Source: Ramlibacter paludis (GTDB lineage: Bacteria > Pseudomonadota > Gammaproteobacteria > Burkholderiales > Burkholderiaceae_C). Taken from it: 64,000 nucleotides of DNA. Of the stretch, positions 32,993-60,182 are shown piece by piece (the stretch's first letter is position 1; every line of letters begins with the position of its first letter). Below the pieces are notes generated by a model that was not told the origin of the DNA, made no database searches, and saw only the letters and a program-made list of their open reading frames with translations. The DNA is taken from positions 496,001 to 560,000 of the forward strand of contig NZ_JAKLTM010000001.1 of the NCBI RefSeq assembly GCF_022012305.1, given 5' to 3'. A program made the position numbers and the translations under genes.

Positions 32993-33832
32993 ATGCGCAA
33001 CCTCACCCAGGACAACATCACCCAGGCCGTCATCGCGCGCCTGGCGCAGACGCCCGACCCGCGATTGAAGGCGATCCTGACCAGCCTGGTGCAGCACCTG
33101 CACGCCTTCGCGCGCGAGGTGAAGCTGACCGAGGGCGAGTGGATGCAGGGCATCGAATTCCTCACGCGGGTGGGCCACATCACCGACGCCCAGCGGCAGG
33201 AGTTCATCCTGCTGTCGGACACGCTGGGCCTGTCGATGCTGACCGTGGCGATGAACAACGACAAGCCGGCCGGCTGCACCGAAGCCACCGTGTTCGGCCC
33301 CTTCTACGTGGAAGACGCGCCGAGCTTCGACCTGGGCGAAGACGTCGCGCGCGGCGCCCCCGGCGAGCCCTGCGACGTGAGCGGCGTGGTGCGCGGGCTG
33401 GGCGGCGAGCCGGTGGCCGGGGCCGAGATCCACGTCTGGCAAGCCGACGCCGAAGGCAAGTACGACGTGCAGCGCGGCGAGGCGCACGGCCACCGGGCGC
33501 GCGGCGTGCTGCATGCCAACGGCAAGGGCGAGTACCACTTCCGCTCCATCCTGGCCGAGGCCTACCCGATTCCCGACGACGGCCCGGTGGGCGACATGCT
33601 CAAGGCCACCGGGCGCCATCCGTGGCGACCGGCGCACCTGCACTTCATGATCAAGGCGCCAGGCTACGAGACGCTGATCACGCACGTGTTCCGCAACGGC
33701 GACCCTTATCTCGATTCGGATGCGGTGTTCGGCGTGCGCCAGTCGCTGGTGGCCGACTGGGTGAAGCAGCCGGACGGCCGGTACAAGGTCGAATACGACT
33801 TCGTGCTGAATCCCGCAGGAGAAGCGCGTTGA
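32993..33832 (+). CDS. Intradiol ring-cleavage dioxygenase, probable hydroxyquinol 1,2-dioxygenase
   Basis: A 279-residue non-haem Fe(III) dioxygenase. An N-terminal helical domain (residues 24-90, with EFILLSDTLGLSMLTVAMNN) precedes the beta-sandwich. Predicted iron ligands are Y157 (GKYDVQ), Y191 (EAYPIPDDGPVG), H215 and H217 (RPAHLHF). The N-terminal domain and overall length match hydroxyquinol and catechol 1,2-dioxygenases and not protocatechuate 3,4-dioxygenase. The maleylacetate reductase in the same operon favours hydroxyquinol, giving maleylacetate. It overlaps the Dabb gene by 4 nt. A second copy is at 50227. Confidence 0.9.
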   Translation: MRNLTQDNITQAVIARLAQTPDPRLKAILTSLVQHLHAFAREVKLTEGEWMQGIEFLTRVGHITDAQRQEFILLSDTLGLSMLTVAMNNDKPAGCTEATVFGPFYVEDAPSFDLGEDVARGAPGEPCDVSGVVRGLGGEPVAGAEIHVWQADAEGKYDVQRGEAHGHRARGVLHANGKGEYHFRSILAEAYPIPDDGPVGDMLKATGRHPWRPAHLHFMIKAPGYETLITHVFRNGDPYLDSDAVFGVRQSLVADWVKQPDGRYKVEYDFVLNPAGEAR

Positions 33833-34132: not shown

Positions 34133-35479
34133 ATGGCACGACAGACCCTGATCCGCGGCGCGACGGTCATCACCATGGACCGCCAGGGCGACTTGCCGGT
34201 GGCCGACGTGCTGGTGCGCGGCGACACCCTCCTGGAGATCGCGCCCTCGCTGCAGGTGGAGGACGCCGAGGTGGTCGACGCCGCCGGCTGCATCGTCATT
34301 CCCGGCCTGGTCAACGCGCACATGCACACCTGGCAGACGGCGCTGCGCGGCGTGGCCGCCAACTGGACGCTGCTGGAGTACTTCCAGAAGATGCATGCCG
34401 GCCTGGCCACCGTCTTCACGCCGGCCGACCTGCGCATTGCCACCCGCATGGGCGCACTGAATCAGTTGAATTGCGGCACCACCACGCTGGCCGACTGGTG
34501 CCACAACAACCCGACGCCGGCGCACAACGACGCCGCCATCGAGGGCCTGCGCGCCAGCGGCATCCGCGCCGCCTTCTTCCACGGCACGCCCAAGCCCGAT
34601 CCCAAGCCGGGGCAGGTGCCGTTCTGGGAAGTGCCGCATCCGCGCGCGGAAGTCGAGCGCCTCCTGAAGGCGCACCAGGGCGACCCGCTGCTCACCATCC
34701 ATGCCGCGGTGCTCGGCCCGCACTATTCGACCCTGCCGGTGGCGCTGCACGACTTCCGCATGGCGCGCGAGCTGGGCATCATCGCTTCGCTGCACCAGGG
34801 CGGCGGTCCGGCGCGCACCCCCGATGGCTGGGAGCGGCTGGAGCAGGAAGGCCTGCTCGGGCCGCAGATCAACATCGTGCACGGCCACGCCTTGAGCGAC
34901 GCGCAGCTGGAACGCTTCTGCGCGCTCGGCATGAGCTTCTCCGCGGCGGCGGAAAGCGAGATGTCGCAAGGCCACGGCCATCCGCTCACCGGACGCTTGC
35001 GGCAATTCGGCCGCGCGCCATCGCTGGGCGTCGACCTGGAGAGCGTGCTTTCCGGCGACATGCTCACGCAGGCCCGCGTGGCGCTGGGCATCCAGCGCAG
35101 CCTGGACAACGTGGCCTACCGCGCCGAGCACGGCAGCATTCCGCCGACCTCCACCATCACCACGCGCGAGGCGCTGGCCTGGGTCACCATCGAAGGCGCG
35201 CGCATGCTGCAGCAGCAGGACCGCATCGGTTCGCTCGCCGCCGGCAAGCAGGCGGACCTGGTCGTGATCCGCGCCAGCGACCTCAACATGCAGCCGGTGC
35301 ACGACGCGGTGAGTTCGGTGGTCTTCCAGGCGTCGCTCGCGAACATCGACAGCGTGATGGTGGCCGGCCAGTGGAAGAAGCGTGGCGGCAAGCTGGTGGG
35401 CGTGGATCTCGCGCCCGGGCTGGAGGAGCTGCGTGCGTCGGGCCGCAAGATCACCGCGGCGCTCGGACTGGCGCCATGA
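34133..35479 (+). CDS. Amidohydrolase family protein (deaminase/chlorohydrolase-like)
   Basis: A 448-residue metal-dependent hydrolase of the ATZ/SAH-deaminase type. The metal site starts with GLVNAHMHTWQTALRG; other motifs are NCGTTTLADWCHNN, IASLHQGGG, NIVHGHALSD and GSLAAGKQADLVVIRA. The family hydrolyses amino groups or halides from ring-type N-heterocycles and nucleobases. Here it lies between a Dabb gene (1 bp) and maleylacetate reductase (ATGA overlap), so it is in the hydroxyquinol operon. This suggests the pathway starts from a substituted aromatic or heterocyclic compound that needs deamination or ring-amide hydrolysis; the substrate is not known. Confidence 0.88.
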   Translation: MARQTLIRGATVITMDRQGDLPVADVLVRGDTLLEIAPSLQVEDAEVVDAAGCIVIPGLVNAHMHTWQTALRGVAANWTLLEYFQKMHAGLATVFTPADLRIATRMGALNQLNCGTTTLADWCHNNPTPAHNDAAIEGLRASGIRAAFFHGTPKPDPKPGQVPFWEVPHPRAEVERLLKAHQGDPLLTIHAAVLGPHYSTLPVALHDFRMARELGIIASLHQGGGPARTPDGWERLEQEGLLGPQINIVHGHALSDAQLERFCALGMSFSAAAESEMSQGHGHPLTGRLRQFGRAPSLGVDLESVLSGDMLTQARVALGIQRSLDNVAYRAEHGSIPPTSTITTREALAWVTIEGARMLQQQDRIGSLAAGKQADLVVIRASDLNMQPVHDAVSSVVFQASLANIDSVMVAGQWKKRGGKLVGVDLAPGLEELRASGRKITAALGLAP

Positions 35480-36534
35480 ATCCCTTCACCTACATCGCCC
35501 GCCCGGCCCGCGTGCTGTTCGGTGCCGGCACCCTTCAGCAACTGCCTGCCGAGGTCGACCGGCTGGGCGCGCGCAAGGCGATCGTGCTGTCCACGCCGGA
35601 GCAGCGCGCTTCGGCGCAGCAGGTGGCCGATCTCCTGGGCACGCGCGCCGCGGGGATCTTCGACCGTGCCGTGATGCACGTGCCGATCGAGACCGCGCGC
35701 GAAGCGCGTGCCTTCGCAGCCAGCCACGGCGCCGACTGCGCGGTGGCCATCGGCGGCGGTTCCACGGTGGGCCTCGGCAAGGCCATCGCGCTCGAATCGG
35801 CGCTGCCCGTCATCGCCATCCCGACCACCTACGCCGGCTCGGAGATGACCACCATCTACGGCATCACGGAAGGCGGCATGAAGAAGACGGGGCGCGCCGA
35901 CCAGGTGCTGCCGCGCACGGTGCTGTACGACCCCGAGCTCTCCGCCGGACTGCCGGTGGGCCTGAGCATCACCAGCGGCATCAACGCCATCGCGCATGCC
36001 GCAGAAGGCCTGTACTCGGTGACCACCAATCCCATCATCGAGATCATGGCGCAGCAGGGCATGGAGGCGCTGGGGCGCGCGCTGCCGCGCATCAAGGCGA
36101 ACGCGCGCGACATGGAGGCGCGCAGCGATGCGCTCTATGGCGCGTGGCTGTGCGGCACGGTGCTGGCGTCGGTCGACATGGCCTTGCACCACAAGCTGTG
36201 CCACACGCTGGGCGGCAGCTTCAACCTGCCGCATGCCGAGACCCACACCATCGTGCTGCCGCATGCGCTGGCCTACAACGCCGCGGCGGCGCCGGAGGCC
36301 ATGCGCAAGATCGCGCAGGCACTCCAAGGCAGCAGCGCCGCGCAGGCGGTCTACGACCTGGCGCACGACAACGGCGCGCCCGTGGCGCTGAAGGACATCG
36401 GGATGCGCGAGACCGACCTGGACCAGGCCTGCGACATCGCCTTGTCCAACCAGTACCCGAACCCGCGGCCGCTGGAACGCGCCGCGATCCGGCAGCTGCT
36501 GCAGGACGCCTGGGAAGGCCGGCGTCCCGGCTAG
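35476..36534 (+). CDS. Maleylacetate reductase
   Basis: A 352-residue member of the iron-containing alcohol dehydrogenase fold. It has FGAGTLQQLPAEVDRLGARK at the N-terminus, the NADH loop VAIGGGSTVGLGKAIALE, and IAIPTTYAGSEMTTIYGITE, the stretch that marks maleylacetate reductases. It reduces maleylacetate to 3-oxoadipate with NADH. The ATG overlaps the amidohydrolase stop by 4 nt. With the dioxygenase (32993) and pcaIJF (24403-26974) it completes a route from hydroxyquinol to succinyl-CoA and acetyl-CoA. Confidence 0.93.
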   Translation: MNPFTYIARPARVLFGAGTLQQLPAEVDRLGARKAIVLSTPEQRASAQQVADLLGTRAAGIFDRAVMHVPIETAREARAFAASHGADCAVAIGGGSTVGLGKAIALESALPVIAIPTTYAGSEMTTIYGITEGGMKKTGRADQVLPRTVLYDPELSAGLPVGLSITSGINAIAHAAEGLYSVTTNPIIEIMAQQGMEALGRALPRIKANARDMEARSDALYGAWLCGTVLASVDMALHHKLCHTLGGSFNLPHAETHTIVLPHALAYNAAAAPEAMRKIAQALQGSSAAQAVYDLAHDNGAPVALKDIGMRETDLDQACDIALSNQYPNPRPLERAAIRQLLQDAWEGRRPG

Positions 36535-48088: not shown

Positions 48089-48575
48089 ATGGAACGTCCT
48101 GTTCCTCTGCACGCACAACTCGGCGCGCAGCATCCTGGCCGAAGCGTCGCTCAACGCCCTGGGCCAGGGCCGCTTCCGCGCGTTCTCCGCCGGCAGCAGC
48201 CCGCGCGAGAACCAGCAGCCGAATCCGCTGGCGCTCGCGGTGCTGGACGAGGCGGGCTATGCCACGGCCGGCCTTTCGAGCAAGAGCTGGGACGTGTTTG
48301 CCGCGGCCGGTGCACCGGCCATGGACCTCGTGATCACCGTGTGCGACAGCGCGGCCGGCGAAACCTGTCCGGTCTGGCCGGGCCATCCGGCGACCGCGCA
48401 CTGGAGCTACGCCGACCCGTCGGAGGTGCAGGGCTCGGAGCGGGAGCGCAAGGATGCTTTCCGGCGGACCTTGCAGGCCATCCGTCAGCGGATCGAACTG
48501 TTCGTGCAGTTGCCGCCAGAGCAGTTGCAGAAGCCGCGCCTGCAACAGGCGGCCCGCGCGCTGGCGGGCCGGTGA
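48081..48575 (+). CDS. arsC: Arsenate reductase, low-molecular-weight phosphatase type
   Basis: A 164-residue arsenate reductase of the LMW-PTPase fold. P-loop C10-THNSA-R16-S17 binds arsenate; two more cysteines (VCDSAAGETC) complete the relay to thioredoxin. It reduces As(V) to As(III). The start is GTG 48081, overlapping arsI by 8 nt, so the two are coupled. Its stop shares GTGA with the aquaporin start. There is no ArsA, ArsB or Acr3 here; the next gene is an aquaporin. Confidence 0.92.
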   Translation: MAEWNVLFLCTHNSARSILAEASLNALGQGRFRAFSAGSSPRENQQPNPLALAVLDEAGYATAGLSSKSWDVFAAAGAPAMDLVITVCDSAAGETCPVWPGHPATAHWSYADPSEVQGSERERKDAFRRTLQAIRQRIELFVQLPPEQLQKPRLQQAARALAGR

Positions 48576-49243
48576 GCGGCGCGCGCCTGCGCCGCGGCCT
48601 GCTGGCGGAATTCCTCGGCACGCTGCTGCTGCTCACAGCCGTCATCGGCTCGGGAATCATGGCGGAGCGGCTGGCCGGCGGCAATGCCGCGGTGGCCTTG
48701 CTGGCCAATACCTTGGCGACCGTGTTCGCGCTGTTCGTGCTGATCGAAGTGCTGGGGCCCGTGAGCGGCGCGCATTTCAATCCCGTGGTGACTTTGGCCT
48801 TCGGCCGCAAGGCGGGACTGGCGTCGTCGTCGCAAGCGGCCTATGTCGCCGTTCAGCTGCTGGGCGCGCTGGCGGGGGCGGCCCTGGCCAATGCCATGTT
48901 CGAGTTGCCGCTGCTCGGCTTCGCGGCCAAGGCGCGCGGTGGCTACGGCCAGTGGATCGCCGAAGCGGTGGCGACGGCGGGCCTGGTGCTGGTGATCGCG
49001 CGGGCCGGCGCAACGCGGGCGCCGGCGCTGGTGGCGGCCTACATCGGCGCGGCCTACTGGTTCACTTCGTCCACCTCGTTCGCCAATCCGGCTGCGGCCT
49101 TCGGTCGGATGTTCAGCGATTCGTTCGCGGGCATCGCGCCGGCTTCGGTGCTGGGGTTCCTGGCGGCGCAGGCGGTCGGCGGGGTGATCGGATTGCTGCT
49201 GGCCCGGGCCCTGGGACAAGGGGAGCAGCCTACGCCGGATTGA
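48572..49243 (+). CDS. aqpS: Aquaporin family channel (AqpS-type) of the ars operon
   Basis: A 223-residue MIP channel. Both pore motifs are seen: SGAHFNPVV in loop B (NPV) and SFANPAAAFGR in loop E (NPA). Helices include LLAEFLGTLLLLTAVIGSGI at the N-terminus. In Sinorhizobium an AqpS beside arsC lets arsenite leave down its gradient and replaces an ArsB pump; the same role fits here because no pump gene is seen. The start is GTG 48572 overlapping arsC by 4 nt. The 3' end overlaps the lysR gene at 49230 by 14 bp, convergent. Confidence 0.9.
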   Translation: MSGARLRRGLLAEFLGTLLLLTAVIGSGIMAERLAGGNAAVALLANTLATVFALFVLIEVLGPVSGAHFNPVVTLAFGRKAGLASSSQAAYVAVQLLGALAGAALANAMFELPLLGFAAKARGGYGQWIAEAVATAGLVLVIARAGATRAPALVAAYIGAAYWFTSSTSFANPAAAFGRMFSDSFAGIAPASVLGFLAAQAVGGVIGLLLARALGQGEQPTPD

Positions 49244-50114
49244 CCGCGGCGCGGCGGATGATCTCCGCGAAGTGCTTCAACACCGGCGAGCGCGCCGCGC
49301 CCTTGGGCCACAGCAGGCCAGGCGTGCGGATCGGCGTCGGGTCTTCCAGCGGAATCACGCGCAGGTCCGCCGTCTGCGAAACGGCGGTCTCCGTGATGAT
49401 CCCCGCCAGGTCGGTCTGCCGGATCAGCTCGATCATCGGCGCCACCGAATTGATCTGCGCGGCGACGACGGGTTTCGCGCCCGCCTGCTCGAAGCAGTCG
49501 TCCAGCAGCTTGCGGGTGAGGAACTGGCCGGGCAGCAGCACCATGCGCACGCCATGCAGTTCCACCATGCGCACGCGGCGGCGGCGCGCCAGCGGATGCG
49601 ACTTGCCGACCACCAGGCGCAGCTCCTCGTTGTAGAGAGGCTCGAACCAGAGGTCGCTGCCTTCGCCGGGCGGATAGGCCACTGCGATGTCCAGGTGGCC
49701 GGAGCGCAGGCGCTTGAGGATCTGGCCGGCGGCGAGTTCCTCCACGCTGACCTGGATGCCCGGGTAGGCATTCAGCAGCGTGGCCACGCATTGCGGAACC
49801 ATGCGCGTGTTGAAGCTCGAGGTGGTGCCCAGGCGGATGCTGCCGGTGATGGCCTCGGCCGGCGCGCGCAGCGCCTGCAGTCCGAGGTCGATCTTCTCCA
49901 GTGCCGGCGTCATGTGGCTGCGCAGGATCTCGCCGGCCTCCGTCATGCGCACGTGCTTGGCGCTGCGGTCGAACAAGGGCGTGCCCAGTTCGTCTTCCAG
50001 CTGCTTGATCTGGTGCGACAGCGTCGACTGCGTGACGTGCAGGCGCTCCGCCGCACGGGTGAAGTTGAGCGTCTCGGCGACGGCGTCGAAGTAGCGCAGG
50101 TGGCGCAGTTCCAT
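49230..50114 (-). CDS. LysR family regulator of the second ring-cleavage operon
   Basis: A 294-residue LysR regulator. Winged helix MELRHLRYFDAVAETLNFTR then AAERLHVTQSTLSHQIKQLE; the effector domain begins GSIRLGTTSSFNTRMVPQCV. It resembles CynR/CatM-like regulators. I take ATG 50114 as start because conserved sequence begins there; ATG 50147 lies inside the probable operator and is unlikely. It diverges from the operon at 50227-58578, the usual relation for an activator of aromatic catabolism. It overlaps the aquaporin gene by 14 bp at its 3' end. Confidence 0.9.
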   Translation of the reverse strand: MELRHLRYFDAVAETLNFTRAAERLHVTQSTLSHQIKQLEDELGTPLFDRSAKHVRMTEAGEILRSHMTPALEKIDLGLQALRAPAEAITGSIRLGTTSSFNTRMVPQCVATLLNAYPGIQVSVEELAAGQILKRLRSGHLDIAVAYPPGEGSDLWFEPLYNEELRLVVGKSHPLARRRRVRMVELHGVRMVLLPGQFLTRKLLDDCFEQAGAKPVVAAQINSVAPMIELIRQTDLAGIITETAVSQTADLRVIPLEDPTPIRTPGLLWPKGAARSPVLKHFAEIIRRAAVNPA

Positions 50115-50135: not shown

Positions 50136-50152
50136 GATCGATGGCATCGATC
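50136..50152. promoter_or_regulatory. LysR box GATCGATG-G-CATCGATC
   Basis: A perfect 17-bp palindrome 22 bp upstream of the lysR ATG and 74 bp before the dioxygenase ATG. It contains T-N11-A and ATC-N9-GAT, both typical of LysR-type recognition sites. Position and symmetry make it the probable binding site of the LysR protein encoded at 49230. Confidence 0.8.
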
Positions 50153-50226: not shown

Positions 50227-51117
50227 ATGGCGCAACTGGAAGCCGCAGATTTCGCGCAGGCCGTGATCGACCGCATGGGCGAGTGCAAGGACGCCCGTTT
50301 CAAGCAGGTGATGAGCGCACTGGTTCGCCACGCGCATGCCTTCGCCCGCGAAGTGGACCTGACCCCCGACGAGTGGATGGACGCCATCCAGTTCCTCACC
50401 GCCACCGGGAAGAAGTGCGACGAGAAGCGGCAGGAGTTCATCCTGCTGTCGGACACGCTGGGCATGTCGATGCTGGTCGTGGCGCTGGAGCAGGCGCGCG
50501 GCGCCAAGGCCCTGGCCGACCAGCCCGGCGAGCGTCCGACCGAAGCCACCGTGCAAGGCCCGTTCTTCTGGCCGGGCGCGCCGAAGAAGGAGCTGGGCGC
50601 CGACATCGGCGAAGGCCTGGGCGAGCCCACCCTGTACCACGGCCGCGTGACCGACACCTTCGGCAAGCCTTTGGCAAACTGCGAGCTCGATGTCTGGTCG
50701 GGCGACGAGGGCGGCCTCTACGACATGCAGAAGGGCGACAGCATGAGCCTGCGCGCCCAGTTCCGTACCGACGCCGAAGGCAACTACCGCTTCTGGTCGA
50801 TCAAGCCGACCTTCTACCCCGTGCCCGGCGACGGGCCGGTGGGCGGCATGCTGGCGCGCATGGGCCGCCACCTCAACCGCCCCGGCCACATGCACATGAT
50901 GCTGAACGCGCCGGGCCACGAGCGGCTGGTGACACACATCTTCGTCAAGGACAGCCCTTACCTCGACTCCGACGCCGTCTTCGGCGTGCGCAACAGCCTG
51001 ATCGTCGACTTTCCCAAGCATCCGCCGGGCAAGGCGCCCGACGGGCGCACGATGGACAAGCCGTTCTACACGGCGAAGTACGACTTCCGGCTGGTGCCGT
51101 CCGGGAGGACCGCGTGA
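50227..51117 (+). CDS. Intradiol ring-cleavage dioxygenase, hydroxyquinol type, second copy
   Basis: A 296-residue Fe(III) dioxygenase. N-terminal helical domain (FILLSDTLGMSMLVVALEQA), then beta-sandwich with predicted ligands Y165 (GLYDMQ), Y197 (TFYPVPGDGPVG), H221 and H223 (RPGHMHM). It shares the N-terminal domain with the copy at 32993 but differs in the lid region (EQARGAKALADQPGERPTEA) and has GHMH instead of AHLH, so its substrate may differ. AGGAGG lies before the ATG. It is the first gene of a long operon and overlaps the citrate-synthase-like gene by 4 nt (GTGA). Confidence 0.88.
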   Translation: MAQLEAADFAQAVIDRMGECKDARFKQVMSALVRHAHAFAREVDLTPDEWMDAIQFLTATGKKCDEKRQEFILLSDTLGMSMLVVALEQARGAKALADQPGERPTEATVQGPFFWPGAPKKELGADIGEGLGEPTLYHGRVTDTFGKPLANCELDVWSGDEGGLYDMQKGDSMSLRAQFRTDAEGNYRFWSIKPTFYPVPGDGPVGGMLARMGRHLNRPGHMHMMLNAPGHERLVTHIFVKDSPYLDSDAVFGVRNSLIVDFPKHPPGKAPDGRTMDKPFYTAKYDFRLVPSGRTA

Positions 51118-51914
51118 AGATCGGCAAGGCCACGGTGCCGCGCTCGGCGATCTGCACCTCCAACGAAGACACCATCGTCGTGCGCGGGCACGACCTGGCG
51201 CGCGAGCTGATCGGCAAGGTCAACTTCGGCGACTACTTCTTCCTGCTGCTCACCGGCCGCAAGCCCGATGCGGCGGCCAGCACGGTCCTCAACGCCACGC
51301 TGGTGGCGATCGCGGAACACGGCCTCGTGCCCAGCGTGCAGGCCGCGCGCATGACCCTCGCGGCCGCGCCCGATGCGATGCAAGGCGCGGTGGCGGCCGG
51401 CCTGCTCGGCTCCGGCTCGGTGATCCTCGGCGCATCGGAAACCGCGGGCCGCCTGTTCGTCGAGATCGACGAGCGCGCGCAAGCCAGCGGCGGCGACCTG
51501 CGCGCGGCCGCGCACGCGGTCGTGGCGGAAAAGCGCGAGAAGCGCATTCCCATCGCCGGCTACGGCCATCCCGAACACAAGCGCCGCGATCCTCGCGTCG
51601 ATGCGCTGTTCGAAGTTTCGGCGCGCGCCGGTGGCGGCCAGCATTTCGTCGAGATCGCCAAGGTGGTCGAGGACGTGATTCCCGCCATCCTGGGGCGCGA
51701 CCTCAAGCTCAACGTGTCGGCGGCGATCCCCGCGGTGCTGCTGGGCGTCGGCTTCCCGGTCAACGCGCTGCGCGGCGTGCCGATGCTGGCGCGCACCGCC
51801 AGCCTGATCGCGCACCTCAACGAGGAGCTGGCCGATCCGATCGGCTTCGCGCTCTCCTACCAGGCCACGCGCGAATTCCAGTACACGGGCGAGATGCCGG
51901 GAGCGGCAGAGTGA
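51114..51914 (+). CDS. Citrate-synthase-fold lyase (citryl-CoA lyase-like)
   Basis: A 266-residue protein of the citrate synthase superfamily but much shorter than citrate synthase. The catalytic His region VAIAEHGLVPSVQAAR and the segment GYGHPEHKRRDPRVDALFEV, which supplies the second His and Arg, are present, as is the final FALSYQATREFQYTGE region. Such short forms are annotated as citryl-CoA lyases, splitting a hydroxyacyl-CoA to acetyl-CoA and an oxo acid. The start is GTG 51114. It sits between a dioxygenase and a CoA-transferase, so an aromatic-derived hydroxy-CoA thioester is a possible substrate; this is inference. Confidence 0.82.
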   Translation: MKIGKATVPRSAICTSNEDTIVVRGHDLARELIGKVNFGDYFFLLLTGRKPDAAASTVLNATLVAIAEHGLVPSVQAARMTLAAAPDAMQGAVAAGLLGSGSVILGASETAGRLFVEIDERAQASGGDLRAAAHAVVAEKREKRIPIAGYGHPEHKRRDPRVDALFEVSARAGGGQHFVEIAKVVEDVIPAILGRDLKLNVSAAIPAVLLGVGFPVNALRGVPMLARTASLIAHLNEELADPIGFALSYQATREFQYTGEMPGAAE

Positions 51915-53074
51915 TCAAGGTCCTGGACGGCGTGCGCGTGCTGGAGCACGGCACCTTCATCACCGGCCCCGCCGCCTCCATGCTGCTGGCGGACCTGGGC
52001 GCCGACGTGGTCAAGGTGGAACTGCCCGGCACCGGCGACCCTTTCCGCGCCTTCAAGGGCGGGCTCTACTCACCGCACTACCAGACGGTGAACCGCAACA
52101 AGCGCAGCATCACGCTCAACACCAAGCAGCCGGCGGACCTGGCGCAGTTCGACGCGCTGGTGAAGGATGCCGACGTCTACATCCAGAATTTCCGCCCCGG
52201 CTTCGCCGAGCAGATCAACACCGGCTTCGAGCGGCTGCGCGGGATCAACGAAAAGCTGATCTACTGCGCCATCAGCGGCTTCGGCGCGACCGGCCCGGCG
52301 GCGCACCGCCCGACCTACGACAGCGTCGCGCAGGCGGCCAGCGGCTACCTGCGGCTGCTGGTGAACCCGGCCAATCCGCGCGTGGTTGGTCCGGCCATCG
52401 CCGATTTCGTCACCGGCTTCTACGCGGCCTACGGCATCCTCGGCGCCCTCTACGAGCGCGAGCGCACCGGCACGGCGCGCAAGGTCGAACTGTCGATGTT
52501 CGAGGCCATGACGCACTTCAACCTCGACGCCTTCCAGCACCTGTTCTCGGCCGACGAAGTCATGGGCCCGTTCAGCCGGCCGAGCGTGTCGCAGTCGTAC
52601 GTGCTCGAGTGCGGCGACGGCAAGTGGATCGCGCTGCACATGTCCTCGCCCGAGAAGTTCTGGCAGGGCCTGGCCACGGCCATGGAGCGCCCGGACATCT
52701 TCCAGGACCCGCGCTTCGCCAGCCGCCAGGCCCGCATCGAGAACCAGGAAGACCTGATCTCGGTGATGCGGCCGGTGTTCGCGCGCCACGATCGCGCCGA
52801 ATGGTGCCGCCGCCTCGACGCCAACGACGTGCCGCATTCCCCCATGTACACGACCGCCGAAGTACCGGAAGATGAACAGGCCAGGCACCTGCAGCTGTTC
52901 GTCGAGACCGAGCATCCCACGGTGGGCACTTTCCGCACGGTGCGCTCGCCGGTCTCCTTCGACGGCCAGCGGCCGCTGGAAGTGACGGCGCCGCCGGTGC
53001 TGGGCGAACACAACGAGGAGCTGCGCGCCGGCTGGCGGCCGCGCGGCCAGGTACAGAAGGAGACGAGGAAGTGA
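51911..53074 (+). CDS. CaiB/BaiF (class III) CoA-transferase
   Basis: A 387-residue CoA-transferase. It starts VLDGVRVLEHGTFITGPAAS and has DLGADVVKVELPGTGDPFRA and NRNKRSITLNTKQPADLAQF; the predicted catalytic Asp is in RPTYDSVAQAASG. It probably moves CoA to an acid made by the upstream ring cleavage so that the lyase at 51114 can act. Acceptor and donor are unknown. The start is GTG 51911, sharing GTGA with the lyase stop; the stop overlaps the Bug gene by 4 nt. Confidence 0.9.
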   Translation: MIKVLDGVRVLEHGTFITGPAASMLLADLGADVVKVELPGTGDPFRAFKGGLYSPHYQTVNRNKRSITLNTKQPADLAQFDALVKDADVYIQNFRPGFAEQINTGFERLRGINEKLIYCAISGFGATGPAAHRPTYDSVAQAASGYLRLLVNPANPRVVGPAIADFVTGFYAAYGILGALYERERTGTARKVELSMFEAMTHFNLDAFQHLFSADEVMGPFSRPSVSQSYVLECGDGKWIALHMSSPEKFWQGLATAMERPDIFQDPRFASRQARIENQEDLISVMRPVFARHDRAEWCRRLDANDVPHSPMYTTAEVPEDEQARHLQLFVETEHPTVGTFRTVRSPVSFDGQRPLEVTAPPVLGEHNEELRAGWRPRGQVQKETRK

Positions 53075-54039
53075 CATTACGCCGTTCCGTCCTGGCCACC
53101 CTGGCCGCTTTCGCGCTGGCGGCACCCGCCTTCGCGCAGGACTTCCCGACCCGCCCGGTCAAGCTGGTCGTGCCTTTCGGCCCCGGCACCACCACCGACA
53201 TCATTTCGCGCGTGTTTGCCGAGGCGCTGGCCAAGCCGCTCGGACAGCCGGTGGTGGTGGAGAACAAGTCCGGCGCCGGCGGCAACATCGGCGCCGACCT
53301 GGTCGCCAAGGCGCAGCCGGACGGCTACACGATCGTGATGGGCACGGTGGGCACGCATGCGATCAACCCGGGTCTGTATCGCAAGATGCCGTACGACGCG
53401 CTGAAGGACTTCGCGCCCATCGGCTTCGCGGGCTACACGCCGACACTGCTGGTGGTGGCTGCCAATTCGCCGCTCAAGTCGCTGAAGGACCTGCAGGCGC
53501 AGGCGCAGGCGGCCAAGGGCGGCGTGAGCTTCGCCTCCGCGGGCAACGGCACCTCGGGCCACCTGGCCGGCGAACTGCTCAAGGCGCGCCTGGGTGGCGA
53601 GATGGTGCACGTGCCTTACAAGGAAGGCGGCCTGGCGATGTCCGACGTGATGGCGGGCCAGGTGCAGTTCATGTTCTACCACCCGGCCGCCGTGGTGCCG
53701 CAGATCAAGGCCGGCAAGCTGCGCGCGCTGGGCGTGTCGAGCGCGAAGCGCAGCGCCGCCGCGCCGGACGTGCCCACCGTCAGCGAACAAGGCTTCGGCG
53801 AGTTCGACCTGGTCGCGTGGTTCATGCTGTACGCGCCGGCCGCGACGCCGGCGCCGGTGCTGGCGAAGCTGCGCGATGCGGTGAACCAGGCCGTCGCCAA
53901 CCCCGAGGTCAAGGCCAAGCTGGCCGCGCAGGGCCTGGAAGTGCCGGCGCTCAAACCGGACGAACTGGCCGCCTTCGGCCGGGTCGAGATCGCGAAGTGG
54001 TCCGAGCTGGTCAAGCGCTCGGGCGCGCAGGTGGATTGA
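53071..54039 (+). CDS. Bug family (tripartite tricarboxylate) substrate-binding protein
   Basis: A 322-residue periplasmic Bug protein. Signal peptide residues 1-22 (cleavage after AFA), FPTRPVKLVVPFGPGTTTDI, and ligand loops VENKSGAGGNIGADLVAK and HVPYKEGGLAMSD. It starts with GTG 53071 overlapping the CoA-transferase stop by 4 nt. It lies in an operon that also has a complete ABC importer. Because no TctAB is nearby it may act in sensing or with a distant TctAB. Confidence 0.9.
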   Translation: MTLRRSVLATLAAFALAAPAFAQDFPTRPVKLVVPFGPGTTTDIISRVFAEALAKPLGQPVVVENKSGAGGNIGADLVAKAQPDGYTIVMGTVGTHAINPGLYRKMPYDALKDFAPIGFAGYTPTLLVVAANSPLKSLKDLQAQAQAAKGGVSFASAGNGTSGHLAGELLKARLGGEMVHVPYKEGGLAMSDVMAGQVQFMFYHPAAVVPQIKAGKLRALGVSSAKRSAAAPDVPTVSEQGFGEFDLVAWFMLYAPAATPAPVLAKLRDAVNQAVANPEVKAKLAAQGLEVPALKPDELAAFGRVEIAKWSELVKRSGAQVD

Positions 54040-54074
54040 TTCCTTCCGCTGAAAAAACATCAGGAGACCAGGCC

Positions 54075-55277
54075 ATGACGATTTCCCGCCGCCGCATCCT
54101 TTCCGCCACCGGCGCTGCCGCCGGTGCGCTGCTTGCCGGCCCCGTGCTGGCCCAGCCGGGCGCGCCCGTGCGCATCGGCAGCACGCTTGCCCTCACCGGC
54201 CCGCTGTCGGCCACCGCGCTCACCCACAAGCTGGTGGGCGAGATCTACGTGGAGCAGTTGAACAAGCGCGGGGGCCTGCTGGGACGCAAGGTGGAGTGGA
54301 TCGTCAAGGACGACCAGTCCAAGCCCGAACTTGCGCGCACGCTGTACGAGCAGCTGATCACCTCCGACAAGGTCGACCTGCTGATGGGACCGTACGCCAC
54401 CGGCGCCATCCTGTCGGCGATGGGCGTGGCCCAGCGCTACAACAAGGTGCTGGTGCACCACACCTTCGGCATTCCCTCGCTGGCCAAGTACGACATGCAG
54501 TTTCCGGCCTGGTCGCTCGGCCCCGATCCGCAGAACACGGTGTCGAACTCGCTGTTCGACCTGATGGCCACGGCCAAGCAGCCGCCCAAGACCATCGCCA
54601 TCGTCACCAGCAAGTTCCCGTCGATCCACTTCATGTCGCTGGGCGGGCGCGAAGTGGCCAAGAAGCGCGGCTACAAGGAAGTGCTGTTCCTCGAATGGGA
54701 CTTCGGCAACCGCGACTTCGGCCCGATCGCCGCGCGCGTGAAGGATGCCAAGCCCGACCTGCTGTGGATCGGCGACATCGGCCTGGAAGGCAACATGCTG
54801 CTGGAGGCGATGAAGAAGATCGACTACGTGCCGCCGCTGCACTTCCACCTGTATCCCGCGCCGGGCCCGATGACCAAGTCGCCCGAAGGCGCCAACGCGC
54901 TGGCCGTGACGATCTTCGAGGAGCACACGCCGTTCACCAATTCGGGCGTGGCCGCCGACTTCGTCAGCACCTTCAACCAGCGCGCGGCGGCGGCCGGCCT
55001 GCCCGATACGCACGTCGAGGTGCAGGCCGCGGCTTCGTACTCCGCCTGGCAGATCCTCGAGGCCGGCGTGGTCGGCGCGAAAAGCCTCGACGACAAGCAG
55101 ATCGCCGCCTTCCTGCGCAAGAACAAGGTCGACACCATCCAGGGGCGGCTGCGCTTCGACGGGCCGGGCAACTACGGCGACGACCTGATGAAGATCAAGC
55201 AGGTGCAGGGCGGCGCCTGGAAGGTGATCTGGCCCGAGTCGTGGGCGGCGCCGGGCGCGCGACTGCAGGTCCGCTGA
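54075..55277 (+). CDS. Branched-chain-type ABC transporter substrate-binding protein (LivK family)
   Basis: A 400-residue periplasmic binding protein. A Tat-type signal (ISRRRILSATGAAAGALLAG) ends near residue 27. Two-lobed fold: VRIGSTLALTGPLSATALTH, LIMGPYATGAILS-like residues (LLMGPYATGAILSAMGVAQR) and VTSKFPSIHFMSLGGREVAK. Many relatives bind aromatic acids or amides rather than leucine. GGAGA precedes the ATG at 54075 and the upstream gap is 35 bp, the largest in the operon. It feeds the permeases encoded immediately downstream. Confidence 0.92.
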   Translation: MTISRRRILSATGAAAGALLAGPVLAQPGAPVRIGSTLALTGPLSATALTHKLVGEIYVEQLNKRGGLLGRKVEWIVKDDQSKPELARTLYEQLITSDKVDLLMGPYATGAILSAMGVAQRYNKVLVHHTFGIPSLAKYDMQFPAWSLGPDPQNTVSNSLFDLMATAKQPPKTIAIVTSKFPSIHFMSLGGREVAKKRGYKEVLFLEWDFGNRDFGPIAARVKDAKPDLLWIGDIGLEGNMLLEAMKKIDYVPPLHFHLYPAPGPMTKSPEGANALAVTIFEEHTPFTNSGVAADFVSTFNQRAAAAGLPDTHVEVQAAASYSAWQILEAGVVGAKSLDDKQIAAFLRKNKVDTIQGRLRFDGPGNYGDDLMKIKQVQGGAWKVIWPESWAAPGARLQVR

Positions 55278-55281
55278 GCCG

Positions 55282-56145
55282 ATGTCGCTTCCCAGCTTCA
55301 ACCTGCTGGCGCAGTCCATCCTGTCCGGCGTCTTCATCGGCGCCCTCTACGGACTCATCGGCCTGGGGCTGGGACTCACCTGGGGCCTGCTGCGGCAGAT
55401 CAACCTGTCGCACTTCGGCCTCGTGTTCCTCGGCGGCTACCTGAGCTACCAGATGGCGCACAGCTGGCACATGGACCCGCTGCTGGCGCTGCTGCTGGTG
55501 CCGCCGCTGTTCTTCTTCATCGGGGTGGCAATGCAGTGGGTGCTGTCGCGCTTTGCCATCTCGCCCTTCAACTCTCTGCTGGTCACATTCGGCATCACGG
55601 TGGTCATCGAAAGCGGCATCCAGGGCGTGTGGACGGCCGACTATCGCAAGCTCGAGTCGCCCTACAACGCGATGAAGTTCATGGTGGGCAGCCTGTACGT
55701 GCCGGTGCCGGAACTGCTGACGCTGGTGCTGGCGCTCGCCGTGTCCTTCGGCATCTGGGCCGCGATGCGCTACACCGACCTGGGCAAGGCGATGCGAGCG
55801 ATGGCGGAGGACGGGCCGATCGCCGCGGCGTTCGGCGTGAATTCGCGTTCGCTCGCGCTGCTGCTGGCCGGCGCGTGCGCCGCGCTGGCGGGCGTGGCGG
55901 GCGTGTGCCTCGCGCTGACCTTCACGCTGGCGCCGTCGCAGATCTTCGCGTGGGTGGGCGTCGTGTTCGCGGCGGTGATGCTCGGCGGCCTCGGCAGCGC
56001 CCTCGGACCCCTGGTCGCGGGCGTGATCATCGGCGTGAGCGAGGCGGTGACCATGGCAGTGGCTTCGCCCTCCTGGGCGCCGATCGTGTCCTTCTCGCTG
56101 CTGATCGTGATGCTGTTGCTGCGGCCGGCGAAGGTCGGCGCATGA
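55282..56145 (+). CDS. livH: Branched-chain-type ABC transporter permease LivH
   Basis: A 287-residue inner-membrane permease with about eight helices. Family motifs: SGVFIGALYGLIGLGLGLTW, MRYTDLGKAMRAMAEDGPIA and AAFGVNSRSLALLLAGACAA, the cytoplasmic coupling loop. It begins 4 bp after the binding-protein gene and overlaps livM-G by 4 nt (ATGA). With the LivM-LivG fusion and LivF it makes the ABC importer. Confidence 0.93.
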   Translation: MSLPSFNLLAQSILSGVFIGALYGLIGLGLGLTWGLLRQINLSHFGLVFLGGYLSYQMAHSWHMDPLLALLLVPPLFFFIGVAMQWVLSRFAISPFNSLLVTFGITVVIESGIQGVWTADYRKLESPYNAMKFMVGSLYVPVPELLTLVLALAVSFGIWAAMRYTDLGKAMRAMAEDGPIAAAFGVNSRSLALLLAGACAALAGVAGVCLALTFTLAPSQIFAWVGVVFAAVMLGGLGSALGPLVAGVIIGVSEAVTMAVASPSWAPIVSFSLLIVMLLLRPAKVGA

Positions 56146-57881
56146 ACCGCAACGTCATCGGCATCCTCCTCGGCGGGGCGGCGCTGGCCTGCGTGCCCTG
56201 GCTGGGGCTGCCGTCCTTCTACGAGTCCTTCCTTTACCTGGTGTGCCACTGGGCGGTGCTCGCGCTGTCGTGGAACATCCTCTCGGGCTACTCGGGCTAC
56301 TTCTCCTTCGGCCACGGCGCATGGTTCGGCATCGGCATGTATGCGACCGCCGTGCTGGCGGGACGTTTCAACTGGCCTTTCCTGGCGACCCTGCCGGCGG
56401 CGGCCGCGGTGCCCGCGCTGCTGGGGCTGGGCTTGGGCTTCGTGGTGTTCCGCGTGAAGGCGGTGCGCGGCGAACTGTTCGCGCTGCTCACGCTGGCCGT
56501 CACCTTCGTGGTGGCGACCATCATCCTCAACACGCCCATCGACGGTGGGCCCGGGATCTACCTGAACACGGTGGCCGTGCCGGCGCTCGGTCCGACTCCT
56601 TCCGCGTCGCTGTACCTGCTGATCCTGCTGGCCGCCATCGCCACCTTGCTGGTGGCGTGGTGGGTGCGCGTGAGCAAGCTGGGCACGGGCCTGTTCGCGA
56701 TCCACGACGACGAGGACGTGGCCGAGGTGATGGGCGTGCCGACCTTCCGCTACAAGCTGCTCGCCTTTGCCCTCTCCTGCGGCCTGGCCGGCGTGGCGGG
56801 CGGCATCCACGCGCTGTTCGTCTCGTACGTGACGGCCGGCGAGACCTTCAACATCACCGTGCCGCTCACGGTCGTGCTCATGAGCGTGCTGGGCGGCACG
56901 CGCTTCTGGGGCGGGCCCGCCGTGGGCGCCGCGGCGATCACCGGCCTGCTGTATCTCTTCACCGCCGGCGACCACGCCGTGGCGGGCAAGGCCGCGGTCG
57001 GCGTGATCCTGGTGCTGGTGATCCTGTTCATGCCGAACGGCATCCTGGGCTTCGTGCATCGCAAGAAGCAGCCGGCGAACGTCATCCCGGCCCCGAGCCG
57101 GGATCCATCTCCGGCATCCGCCGCCCCCGCCGCACCCGCCGTCGTCACCGGCAAGCCCTTGCTCGAAGTGCGCGGCCTGTCCAAATCCTTCAAGGGCGTC
57201 CAGGCGCTCGACAAGGTCAGCCTCCAGGTGCGCCAGGGCGAGATCCTCGGCCTGCTCGGTCCCAACGGCTCCGGCAAGTCCACCTTCATCAACGTCGTCA
57301 GCGGCCACTATCCGTTGTCCGGCGGCGAGATCGTCTTCGACGGCCGCGTGCTCACCGGCCAACCCGCGCACCGCATGGCGCAGGCCGGCATCGCCCGCAC
57401 CTACCAGATCCCGCGGCCCTTCAAGCACATGACGGTGCTGGAGAACGTGGCCATGGTGGCGATGTTCGGCTGCGCCGCGCTCGACCGGCAGCAGGCGCAG
57501 CGCGAAGCCTGGAAGTGGCTGGAGTTCACCGGCCTGCAGGCCCGCGCGCATGCGCTGCCCGACGACCTGAACCTGCACCAGCGCAAGTTCCTCGAGCTGG
57601 CGCGCGCGCTGGCCGCGCGGCCGCGCCTGGTGCTGCTGGACGAAGTGCTCTCGGGCCTGACGCCGGGCGAGATCAACGAAGCCATAGCCCTGATCCGCCG
57701 CATCCGCGACCAGGGTTCCACCATCGTGTTCGTCGAGCACGTGATGCGCGCCGTGATGGCGCTCACCGACCGCATCGTGGTGCTGAACCACGGCAAGCTG
57801 ATCGCCCAGGGCGAGGCCACCGCGGTGATGCAGGACAGCGAAGTGATGAGCGCCTACCTGGGACGACCCGCCCATGCTTGA
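56142..57881 (+). CDS. Fused LivM permease and LivG ATPase
   Basis: A 579-residue single chain. Residues 1-310 are a LivM permease (HWAVLALSWNILSGYSGYFS, AGGIHALFVSYVTAGETFNI). A linker around residues 312-334 (VIPAPSRDPSPASAAP) is followed by a LivG ATPase: Walker A GLLGPNGSGKSTF, the degenerate signature DDLNLHQRKFLELARAL usual in LivG, and Walker B LVLLDEVLSGL. Separate genes are the usual form; fusions exist in Burkholderiales. Part of the linker is encoded by a hairpin repeat (57081-57106). The 3' end overlaps livF by 8 nt. Confidence 0.92.
   Translation: MNRNVIGILLGGAALACVPWLGLPSFYESFLYLVCHWAVLALSWNILSGYSGYFSFGHGAWFGIGMYATAVLAGRFNWPFLATLPAAAAVPALLGLGLGFVVFRVKAVRGELFALLTLAVTFVVATIILNTPIDGGPGIYLNTVAVPALGPTPSASLYLLILLAAIATLLVAWWVRVSKLGTGLFAIHDDEDVAEVMGVPTFRYKLLAFALSCGLAGVAGGIHALFVSYVTAGETFNITVPLTVVLMSVLGGTRFWGGPAVGAAAITGLLYLFTAGDHAVAGKAAVGVILVLVILFMPNGILGFVHRKKQPANVIPAPSRDPSPASAAPAAPAVVTGKPLLEVRGLSKSFKGVQALDKVSLQVRQGEILGLLGPNGSGKSTFINVVSGHYPLSGGEIVFDGRVLTGQPAHRMAQAGIARTYQIPRPFKHMTVLENVAMVAMFGCAALDRQQAQREAWKWLEFTGLQARAHALPDDLNLHQRKFLELARALAARPRLVLLDEVLSGLTPGEINEAIALIRRIRDQGSTIVFVEHVMRAVMALTDRIVVLNHGKLIAQGEATAVMQDSEVMSAYLGRPAHA
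57081..57106 (+). repeat. Hairpin repeat inside the LivM-LivG linker
   Basis: The sequence from GTCATCCC to GGGATCC has an 8-bp stem (ATCCCGGC / GCCGGGAT, 57084-57091 and 57097-57104) with a 5-nt loop. It is the same class as 4381-4406 and 26976-27035. In frame it encodes VIPAPSRDP of the linker between permease and ATPase. Confidence 0.7.
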
Positions 57882-58578
57882 AGTCGACGACCTGAAGGTG
57901 AACTACGGCGCCGCGCCGGCCTTGTGGGGCGTGTCGCTGCGCGTGGAACCGGGTGAACTGGTCTGCGTGGTGGGGCCCAACGGCGCCGGCAAGAGCACGC
58001 TGATCAACGTGATCGCCGGCCTGCACAGGGCGCGCGCGGGGCAGCTGCGCTTCAACGGGCAGGACATCACGCAGCTGGCCAGCCACCGTTTCTGCACGCA
58101 CGGCATCGCCATCGTGCCCGAGGGCCGGCGCCTCTTCACCGGCATGAGCGTGCGCGACAACCTGGAGCTGGGAAGCTACTTGCCTGGTCCCCGGGCGCAG
58201 CGCGCGGAGTCGCTCGCGCGCGTGCTCGCGCTGTTCCCGGCCCTGGAGCAGAAGCTGGCGCAGCCGGCGGGATCGCTTTCCGGCGGCCAGCAGCAGATGG
58301 TGGCGATCGGCCGCGCGATGATGAGCCGGCCGCAGTTGCTGCTGCTGGACGAGCCTTCGCTGGGCCTGGCGCCGCTGATCGTGCAGTCGATGTTCCAGGC
58401 CATCCGCCAGATCAATGCGGAAGGCACCTCGGTGCTGCTGGTGGAACAGAACGTGGCGATGGCGATGGAGCTTGCGCAACGCGCCTATGTCATGGAGGAA
58501 GGCCGCATCGTCGCCGAAGGTCCCGCCGGCGAACTCATGGAACGGCCGGAGATCCAGAAGGCCTACCTGGGCGTGTAA
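57874..58578 (+). CDS. livF: Branched-chain-type ABC transporter ATPase LivF
   Basis: A 234-residue ABC ATPase of the LivF type. Walker A VVGPNGAGKSTLINVI, signature SLSGGQQQMVAIGRAM, Walker B LLLLDEPSLGLAP and switch LVEQNVAMAME. It completes the ABC importer as second ATPase beside LivG. Its start overlaps the LivM-LivG stop by 8 nt. The stop overlaps the monooxygenase gene by 16 bp in convergent orientation, so no terminator separates them. Confidence 0.94.
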   Translation: MLEVDDLKVNYGAAPALWGVSLRVEPGELVCVVGPNGAGKSTLINVIAGLHRARAGQLRFNGQDITQLASHRFCTHGIAIVPEGRRLFTGMSVRDNLELGSYLPGPRAQRAESLARVLALFPALEQKLAQPAGSLSGGQQQMVAIGRAMMSRPQLLLLDEPSLGLAPLIVQSMFQAIRQINAEGTSVLLVEQNVAMAMELAQRAYVMEEGRIVAEGPAGELMERPEIQKAYLGV

Positions 58579-60182
58579 GTCGCTGCATCGGCGCCGCGCC
58601 AGGCCACGACCTGGTCGGGGCGGATCAGCACCAGCGGCGCTTCGTACAACGCGCGCAGGGCGGGGTCCTCGTGGCGCACGACGGCGAGGTCCAGGCCGAG
58701 TCGCGTGAACGGTGCCACGTCGGGCGCATCGCCGCCCAGTACCAGCAGCGTCCACTCCGGCCCGAAGGTGTCGTACAGCGAGCGGCCGTCGGCCAGCCAT
58801 GCGTGGGGAGGGCGGCCGCCGGGACAGGCCGTGGGCACGTAGACGTTCGCTTCGTCCGGCGGCGGCGTGGTGCCGTCCGGCACGATGGCCGGCGAGCCGT
58901 CGTAGCGCCCGCCGAAGGTGACGCCGGGAATGTTGAACTCCATGCGGACATGCGCGGACAGATGGCGCGCCGCCTCCGCGCGCGCGGCCTCGCCCGCGGG
59001 ACCCTCGGCTTCGAGTTCCGGCCTGGCGCTGAACAGGCCCACCGAGTCCGCGAAGCGGCGCGCATACGCCGTGTTGCGCAGCGCCAGCGGACGCCGCTCG
59101 ATCTCGTAGCTTTCCAGCAGGCTGGGCGCGCTCACGCCGCGCAGCACCTGCGCCAGCTTCCAGCCCAGGTTCACCGCATCCTCGACCGCCGTGTTGTAGC
59201 CCAGGCCGCCCGTGGGCGTGAACAGGTGGGCGGCATCGCCGCCGATGAACACCCGGCCCTTCCCGAAAGCCTGGGCGACCAGCGAGTGCCCGGCGGTCCA
59301 GGTGCCCAGCGACAGGATCTCGATGGGAAGATCGCGCCCCACCGCCTCGGCAAACACGCGCCGTGCATCGTCGGGCGTCCAGCGGTCCGCGTCCTCGCCG
59401 GGATGCACCGCGGCGTGGAAGGCAAACTCGCTGCGTCCATCCACTGACGCCATGAAGGCGCGCCGCTCGGCATTGACGCTCACGTACATCCACGCGCGTG
59501 CATGGGGAAACACGTCGTAGAACCCGGGGGCCCGGATGTACGCGGCGAACATCTGGCCGCCCATGAAATCGCGCTTGATGCCGGAGTGGCCGGCCCACGC
59601 GATGCCCAGCGCGTTGCGCACCATGCTGCGCGCGCCGTCCGCGCCCACCAGGTACTTGGCGCGCACCGGCACCGGCGCGCCGGCCCCCACCGGCTGCACG
59701 AGGGCTTCGACGTGCGTCGCGCGGTCCTCGAACGACAGCAGTTGCCAGCCATAGCGGATGTCGTTGGCGGGCAGGGCCTGCGCGTGCCGGCGCAGCACCG
59801 CCTCGACGAACTTCTGCGAGACGCGGTGCGGCAGCTCCGCCGCGCTCCACGAGCCCGCCAGGGTCTTCACGTTGCGCACGGCTTCGGCCGCAGTGGGAAG
59901 GGTCAGGCGGGCCAGCTCCCACGCGGTGAAGCGCGTGAAGTAGGCGATGTCGGTCGGGTGATCGGGGGGCAGCCCGAGCGCGCGCACCTCGTCCGCGAAT
60001 CCGAGCCGGCGGAAGTGCTCCATGGTCCGCGCCTGCGTGGCGTTGGCCTGCGGATTGAAGGCGGTCGAAGGCTTCGCGTCGACGACCAGCGTGCGCACGC
60101 CGCGCCGCCCCAGCTCGTTGGCGAGCATGAGGCCGAAAGGCCCGCCGCCTGCGACCAGCACCTCGGTGTCCAGCACTTGCAT
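58563..60182 (-). CDS. FAD-dependent aromatic-ring monooxygenase (phenol hydroxylase/TfdB type)
   Basis: A 539-residue class A flavoprotein hydroxylase. FAD motif EVLVAGGGPFGLMLANELGR (GxGxxG), the DG motif YLVGADGARSMVRNALG and the second FAD motif RVFIGGDAAHLFTPTGGLGY. It inserts one oxygen into a phenolic ring using NADPH. The C-terminal thioredoxin-like part fits PheA/TfdB/MhpA relatives. The substrate is not clear. It converges with the ring-cleavage operon at 50227-58578 and could make its hydroxyquinol- or catechol-type substrate, but a link by regulation is not seen. Confidence 0.9.
   Translation of the reverse strand: MQVLDTEVLVAGGGPFGLMLANELGRRGVRTLVVDAKPSTAFNPQANATQARTMEHFRRLGFADEVRALGLPPDHPTDIAYFTRFTAWELARLTLPTAAEAVRNVKTLAGSWSAAELPHRVSQKFVEAVLRRHAQALPANDIRYGWQLLSFEDRATHVEALVQPVGAGAPVPVRAKYLVGADGARSMVRNALGIAWAGHSGIKRDFMGGQMFAAYIRAPGFYDVFPHARAWMYVSVNAERRAFMASVDGRSEFAFHAAVHPGEDADRWTPDDARRVFAEAVGRDLPIEILSLGTWTAGHSLVAQAFGKGRVFIGGDAAHLFTPTGGLGYNTAVEDAVNLGWKLAQVLRGVSAPSLLESYEIERRPLALRNTAYARRFADSVGLFSARPELEAEGPAGEAARAEAARHLSAHVRMEFNIPGVTFGGRYDGSPAIVPDGTTPPPDEANVYVPTACPGGRPPHAWLADGRSLYDTFGPEWTLLVLGGDAPDVAPFTRLGLDLAVVRHEDPALRALYEAPLVLIRPDQVVAWRGADAATYTPR

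Follow-up and report, generated by a model that had tools for sequence, protein, structure and literature searches.

What sequence of reactions is encoded by an operon in which a ring-cleavage dioxygenase is followed by a citrate synthase-fold protein, a class III coenzyme A (CoA)-transferase and an importer? The question is raised by eight consecutive genes at positions 50227-58578 of a 64,000-nucleotide (nt) stretch of the Ramlibacter paludis genome (contig NZ_JAKLTM010000001.1, positions 496,001 to 560,000 of the forward strand), referred to here in its entirety as the window. The reading that we tentatively favour, with a confidence just short of even, is that the genes form, under LysR control, a self-contained regulon serving the use of an aromatic compound, in which ring cleavage would be followed by CoA transfer and by the release of acetyl-CoA and a small acid by the citrate synthase-fold protein (hereafter CSL). 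The operon and its upstream control region comprise the following features:

49230..50114, minus strand: divergent LysR-type regulator (Pfam HTH_1 and LysR_substrate)
50137..50151, plus strand: palindromic operator-like site ATCGATGGCATCGAT, 15 nt, between the LysR and dioxygenase genes
50227..51117, plus strand: intradiol ring-cleavage dioxygenase forming a group of its own (Pfam, residue conservation and tree)
51114..51914, plus strand: CSL, a citrate synthase-fold protein of the NCBIfam PRK06224 'citryl-CoA lyase' subfamily (NF004868), lacking the catalytic Asp
51911..53074, plus strand: class III CoA-transferase (PF02515, CoA-transferase III, 341 bits)
53071..54039, plus strand: Bug (TctC) periplasmic binding protein (PF03401)
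54075..55277, plus strand: LivK-type substrate-binding protein (PF13458, Peripla_BP_6)
55282..56145, plus strand: LivH-type permease (PF02653, BPD_transp_2)
56142..57881, plus strand: fused LivM permease-LivG ATPase, a single frame of 579 residues (PF02653 at residues 28-294, PF00005 at residues 356-502)
57874..58578, plus strand: LivF-type ATPase (PF00005, ABC_tran; the top NCBIfam match is LivF, below its cut-off)

The junctions between successive genes measure -4, -4, -4, +35, +4, -4 and -8 nt, and 112 nt separate the LysR gene from the first gene of the operon. The original prediction had described the same eight-gene run, and its families and coordinates agree with the Pfam assignments and with junctions of -8 to +35 nt. 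A search for the gene order in other genomes, which the prediction had proposed, recovered the run in, for example, Ramlibacter (loci L068 and L071) and Polaromonas (L072 and L079), so the operon is not a chance cluster. All five functional parts of a Liv (branched-chain amino acid type) ATP-binding cassette (ABC) importer, namely, the binding protein, two permeases and two ATPases, were recognised by Pfam; unlike in the usual Liv importers, LivM and LivG are fused in one chain, and the set is linked to aromatic catabolic genes. The Bug protein has no TctA or TctB partner among the operon genes, and no promoter or terminator signal stood clearly above chance level.

Conservation of the module

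The CSL scan yielded at least 595 stretches, at least 466 of them with relatives, and the 80 best relatives were retained; locus counts refer to the 63 of these 80 with at least 4.5 kb of flank on each side and to neighbours within 8 kb, with homologues accepted from 38% identity upwards, except for Bug (30%) and LysR (40%). Thirty loci of CSL paralogues, some of them below the cut-off of the NCBI family model that CSL also matches and through which they were collected, served as the control; 22 had sufficient flank. The best CSL matches were from Ramlibacter. A close class III CoA-transferase is encoded in 61 of the 63 CSL loci compared to one of the 22 paralogue loci, and the CSL-linked dioxygenase in 46 compared to none, at the same cut-offs. 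Bug, by contrast, is not specific to the module: it is present in 53 CSL loci, yet also in 18 of the 22 paralogue loci. A LysR gene is found in 50 CSL loci. The order of the genes varies (dioxygenase-CSL-transferase, transferase-dioxygenase-CSL or transferase-CSL), indicating that the association exceeds a single inherited block.

Only two CSL loci, L112 and L113, lack the transferase. In L112, which has no transferase match, an AMP-binding CoA ligase is encoded directly after CSL, and in the Cupriavidus necator N-1 plasmid pBB2 (L173), the genes for CSL, an AMP-binding CoA ligase and an intradiol dioxygenase lie side by side. Given that a CoA ligase occupies the same place in these two cases, the role of the transferase as the source of a CoA ester gains support. 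L113 was rejected as a case of a lone CSL, its genome carrying the dioxygenase and transferase on another contig. A separate cluster next to the pBB2 genes encodes a CoA-transferase together with an HMGL-family lyase and LeuC, an analogous transferase-lyase pair. Overall, the comparison supports CoA activation beside a lyase-fold protein as the conserved core of the module.

A separate group of intradiol dioxygenases

The operon enzyme was originally predicted to be a hydroxyquinol-type dioxygenase. It does carry the intradiol domains, and its nearest solved relatives are hydroxyquinol dioxygenases; Y165, Y197, H221 and H223, which we take to be the iron ligands (Tyr2His2), are intact in 59 of 59 CSL-linked dioxygenases. 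The grouping with characterised hydroxyquinol dioxygenases did not hold. In a tree of 100 rows, 61 CSL-linked dioxygenases and L146 are placed across a branch (support 97/99) from five solved hydroxyquinol dioxygenases and 19 rows of the type of HQDO2, the second, canonical-type hydroxyquinol dioxygenase of the window. A cleaner rebuild with 56 rows separated 32 from 24 rows with support of 100/100, all five solved enzymes again being opposite the operon enzyme; three of the five are long-branched, and the separation in both trees is one of branch support. The pocket motifs differ as well. CSL-linked dioxygenases contain TV(Q/L/E)GP (43, 10 and 6 of 59, respectively) versus TVFGP in 1tmx, 3n9t and HQDO2, and RPGH in 59 of 59 versus RPAH in 3n9t and HQDO2, with 1tmx itself having RASH. 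Given the separate tree group and the changed pocket motifs, the operon dioxygenase is, as judged by sequence comparison, more than a second copy of a hydroxyquinol dioxygenase.

A vicinal triol, such as gallate or pyrogallol, is a possible ring substrate, considered because intradiol and extradiol enzymes would share the product and a LigB-type enzyme follows the CSL-transferase pair in L169 and L172; it was not chosen because the dioxygenase is nearest to the hydroxyquinol enzymes.

Two further proteins were observed near the dioxygenase or CSL. A single-domain MetE-like protein is encoded near the CSL-linked dioxygenase in L112, L118, L141 and L144 and could point to methoxylated substrates. 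An NADPH-dependent flavin mononucleotide (FMN) reductase, found beside the dioxygenase or CSL in L101, L143 and L169, would suit a quinone-forming substrate.

The citrate synthase-fold protein and its partner

CSL matches the NCBIfam citryl-CoA lyase model NF004868 with 328 bits (cut-off 193). The best Foldseek match of its AlphaFold2 model (mean pLDDT 85.6) is the citryl-CoA lyase of Hydrogenobacter (6hxp; E 3.9e-12, TMq 0.79), and CSL shares both fold and length with this enzyme and with the citrate synthase module of ATP-citrate lyase. H69, H152, D159, R161 and R227 are invariant in all 57 CSL orthologues, indicating that the protein is under strong constraint. The His and Arg positions that we take to form the oxo-acid site of the citryl-CoA lyase family are kept in CSL. 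His155, a Tyr in 6hxp, is invariant as well and may be a replacement acid-base residue.

In contrast to 6hxp and the ATP-citrate lyase module, CSL has a class III transferase as its partner. Asp165 of this transferase, presumably the catalytic Asp, is kept in 71 of 71 sequences. Since seven hand-picked neighbours of CSL paralogues were assigned by Pfam to the acyl-CoA dehydrogenases, MaoC, the CoA (AMP-) ligases and an enoyl-CoA hydratase, the family probably acts on CoA esters, although not by the textbook citryl-CoA mechanism.

An operator-like site and a probable single-target regulon

No other place in the window matches ATCGATnnnATCGAT, which lies at 50137-50151 between the divergent LysR gene and the dioxygenase gene, even when one mismatch is allowed (chance mean 0.03). 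The exact site occurs once in the 5.0-Mb genome, with three other places at one mismatch; one of these (L179) has no recognisable target. The site is also conserved among homologous intergenic regions, 65 of which were obtained from 88 loci: 37 match exactly, 20 with one mismatch, six with two and two only with five, compared to three or more mismatches in every case when each region was shuffled once. A longer pattern matched in 11 of 15 related genomes, in all 11 with one match inside the module, and one genome had a second site. The module therefore has the appearance of a LysR regulon with one target. The exact site is shared between dioxygenase-containing modules and some dioxygenase-less ones (L053, L111, L125, L167 and L168), so that one inducer probably acts on both. 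LivK is encoded in 23 of the 63 loci, all of which except L097, L102 and L122 include the dioxygenase, which suggests that the Liv importer carries an aromatic compound.

A classical hydroxyquinol cluster in the same window

The window contains a second set of aromatic catabolic genes, with the following key members:

24403-26974: class I CoA-transferase pair and thiolase (Pfam)
32993..33832, plus strand: HQDO2 (tree placement opposite the operon enzyme; TVFGP and RPAH motifs)
35476..36534, plus strand: maleylacetate reductase, part of the classical cluster rather than of the operon (scores of 380 bits against 3w5s and 379 against 3hl0, which both carry this enzyme name)

HQDO2 and the operon enzyme are the two intradiol dioxygenase genes of the whole genome. 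The thiolase is 69% identical to the thiolase of L118, which passes the pcaF model, and we infer that the class I transferase pair is PcaI/PcaJ. A classical hydroxyquinol route therefore appears to be present 14-26 kb upstream of the operon, judging from these gene assignments. Hence the original statement that maleylacetate reductase is missing holds for the operon genes but fails for the window, the surrounding region having one. The reductase is not in the same regulon as the operon, as none is encoded there and the operator-like site is absent from the reductase cluster at 35476.

The operon shares with the hydroxyquinol (maleylacetate/3-oxoadipate) pathway a CoA-transferase and an intradiol dioxygenase, the latter a relative of hydroxyquinol dioxygenases, and differs from it in several respects: reductase and thiolase are lacking, the transferase is of class III rather than class I, a citrate synthase-fold protein is added and the dioxygenase belongs to a separate group. 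Homologues of HQDO2 are encoded in 14 of the 63 CSL loci. A RutE-like protein, present in 19, was set aside as a candidate for a step of the route; in the 3.8-kb stretch L150, it is encoded together with HQDO2 and reductase genes.

Proposed pathway

In the proposed route, the Liv ABC transporter would take up an aromatic compound or its precursor, and the dioxygenase would perform intradiol cleavage of a polyhydroxylated ring, yielding a dicarboxylic acid with a 3-oxo (enol) or 3-hydroxy group. The CoA-transferase would place CoA, probably from succinyl-CoA, on this acid, and CSL would break the C2-C3 bond, releasing acetyl-CoA together with a small acid for central metabolism. As the chemistry of CSL, we prefer hydrolytic retro-Claisen cleavage of a 3-oxoacyl-CoA, because a 4-hydroxylated catechol would give a 3-oxo acid directly and the operon encodes no hydratase. 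Hydroxyquinol would then yield acetyl-CoA and maleate, and 1,2,3,5-tetrahydroxybenzene acetyl-CoA and oxaloacetate. The alternative, a retro-aldol reaction on a 3-hydroxyacyl-CoA, would be more natural for dioxygenase-less forms of the module with LeuCD. The substrates of every step, as well as C-C cleavage by CSL, are what we infer.

The outline of CoA activation followed by C-C cleavage, as first predicted, is still the best reading: its first half draws on the prevalence of the transferase and on the CoA ligases that stand in for it, whereas the citryl-type lyase action imagined for the second half finds no support in the active-site residues of CSL, as detailed below. That the operon encodes an undescribed aerobic pathway, in which an intradiol cleavage product is activated by a class III transferase and split by an Asp-less CSL through hydrolytic retro-Claisen cleavage to acetyl-CoA and a C4 acid, bypassing maleylacetate reductase and 3-oxoadipyl-CoA thiolase, is possible, although we would not bet on it. 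Among the titles and beginnings of abstracts listed from the open-access literature, we found no description of this gene set and nothing on citryl-CoA lyase together with hydroxyquinol. There is a reasonable chance that the pathway is new; otherwise, it would be a variant of known catabolic logic. If the proposal is true, oxygenolytic ring opening and CoA-dependent C-C cleavage, usually separate logics, would be joined in a three-enzyme regulon of many Burkholderiales. The dioxygenase, transferase and CSL form a compact, testable set for finding the true reaction.

Evidence against the proposal and alternative readings

Several observations weigh against the proposed pathway, the first of which concern the chemistry of CSL. 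All 57 CSL orthologues have Ser (Ser202) in place of the Asp of the NVD motif, and Ile or Val replaces the His of the SAHGG motif; GHR is changed to GHP relative to 6hxp and the ATP-citrate lyase module. The NVD Asp is, we assume, D1026 of human ATP-citrate lyase (ACLY). The D1026A substitution abolishes the formation of acetyl-CoA by human ACLY; the authors of that study argued that the residue acts allosterically, and its role is debated (PMC10115795). Asp is also absent at the position of residue 202 in 26 of 30 paralogue rows, being kept in 6hxp, 6nzy and the four paralogue rows below the family cut-off (L062-L065). Given this loss, CSL may not be a lyase. The prediction of a citryl-CoA-type lyase finds no support beyond the fold and the family model, and the 'citryl-CoA lyase' label is doubtful. 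Proteins of this subfamily that are annotated by this name lack the Asp needed for citryl-CoA cleavage, so that the automatic name may be wrong.

The second point concerns the transferase. With a looser cut-off, nine of the 30 paralogue loci include some class III transferase match, mostly 24-33% identical. Pairing with class III transferases is thus not unique to the module, although pairing with the close transferase is.

The third point is the variable presence of the dioxygenase. Of 18 genomes with a dioxygenase-less module, seven give no intradiol match (genome completeness not given), four give weak matches (E 5e-7 to 5e-11), one has a true gene elsewhere (84%) and six have relatives at 46-52%. 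Because of the seven, the core looks like LysR-transferase-CSL-Bug, degrading an acid, with ring cleavage as an optional feeder. There are other feeders, too: in one Sinorhizobium and one Neorhizobium plasmid, a class III extradiol enzyme of the LigB type follows CSL and the transferase. LeuC-LeuD are encoded beside the core in L116, the Burkholderia glumae plasmid L166 and Caballeronia L168, and LeuC in L053. The B. glumae set, consisting of LysR, dioxygenase, CSL, a flavin adenine dinucleotide (FAD) hydroxylase, transferase, LeuC and LeuD, could take a phenol as far as a C4 or C5 hydroxy acid with no need for maleylacetate reductase.

These observations favour the strongest alternative, namely, that the core degrades a tertiary 3-hydroxy dicarboxylic acid, for instance a citramalate-like one, by CoA transfer and retro-aldol cleavage to acetyl-CoA and a 2-oxo acid, the hydroxy acid being made by LeuCD or another hydratase and the dioxygenase being one of several feeders. 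Imported 3-oxo acids, moreover, would be expected to be unstable. The logic would be that of itaconate degradation, where the citramalyl-CoA lyase is of the CitE/HpcH type. The itaconate cluster encodes a CoA transferase, a hydratase and an (S)-citramalyl-CoA lyase (PMC12290011); it resembles the module in that a dicarboxylic acid is activated with CoA and then split by a C-C lyase to acetyl-CoA, and differs in that the lyase is of another family than CSL and no ring cleavage is involved. Nevertheless, LeuC was found in just one of the 63 counted loci, the operon includes no hydratase, and the lost Asp speaks against a plain citryl-type retro-aldol reaction. We regard this alternative as doubtful, although it deserves serious consideration.

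The final point against the proposed pathway is at the same time the basis of a second alternative: in 14 of the 63 loci, a maleylacetate reductase gene lies no more than 8 kb away. Of 15 loci listing a reductase, seven also hold HQDO2 and eight have no HQDO2-type gene, so that in some strains the reductase may belong to the CSL route. The eight include loci with the CSL-linked dioxygenase only (L076, L078, L081, L118 and L141) and loci without a dioxygenase in the stretch (L097, with one weak 62-residue match, L099 and L125); the genomes of L099 and L125 have the reductase and no intradiol match at all, and L118 and L141 carry dioxygenase-CSL-transferase-PcaF opposite CatJ-CatI-reductase. The route might accordingly converge on maleylacetate if, for example, a catechol with a CH2COOH group, such as homoprotocatechuate, were cleaved, hydrated and CoA-transferred, with CSL releasing acetyl-CoA and maleylacetate for the reductase and the 3-oxoadipate genes. 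This is unlikely, considering that the reductase is lacking from the 8-kb surroundings in 49 of the 63 loci, that the hydration step has no assigned enzyme and that the operator-like site is missing from the reductase cluster of the window. Least likely, by a little, is that an ordinary hydroxyquinol dioxygenase feeds the upstream reductase, with the transferase-CSL pair acting on some unrelated acid taken up from outside and only co-induced. This might be supposed from the closest solved relatives and from the full classical set in the window. However, the dioxygenase forms a separate group with altered pocket motifs and is found with CSL in 46 of the 63 loci despite differing gene orders, and the genome already holds the canonical HQDO2 gene.

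Neighbouring genes

The operon ends against a convergent gene with which it shares 16 nt:

58563..60182, minus strand: FAD aromatic hydroxylase (monooxygenase; FAD_binding_3 and Rng_hyd_C)

Relatives of this hydroxylase are encoded near the HQDO2 gene in L072, L074 and L079, and the enzyme is a possible supplier of the ring substrate. It is adjoined by a frame with a protein kinase domain at 60207-61253.

The second aromatic cluster spans 22644-36534. Its upstream part comprises a DHDPS-like gene, an RraA-like aldolase, the class I CoA-transferase pair, the thiolase and a Bug gene, followed by an HIBADH-like dehydrogenase, a LysR gene (recognised by eye), HQDO2, a Dabb-like gene, an amidohydrolase and maleylacetate reductase. 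The small Dabb-like frame (33829-34131), also recognised by eye, overlaps HQDO2 and precedes the amidohydrolase gene, the two lying between HQDO2 and the reductase; small Dabb, YciI and SnoaL-like proteins recur near HQDO2 across related loci. A TRAP-type transporter with a DctM protein of 679 residues is encoded at 19553-22634, beside the aldolase genes. On the other side of the LysR gene of the operon, 47255-49243 is likely an arsenic resistance group, with an ArsR-like helix-turn-helix protein, a glyoxalase and a low-molecular-weight phosphatase of the ArsC type, as judged by Pfam and position.

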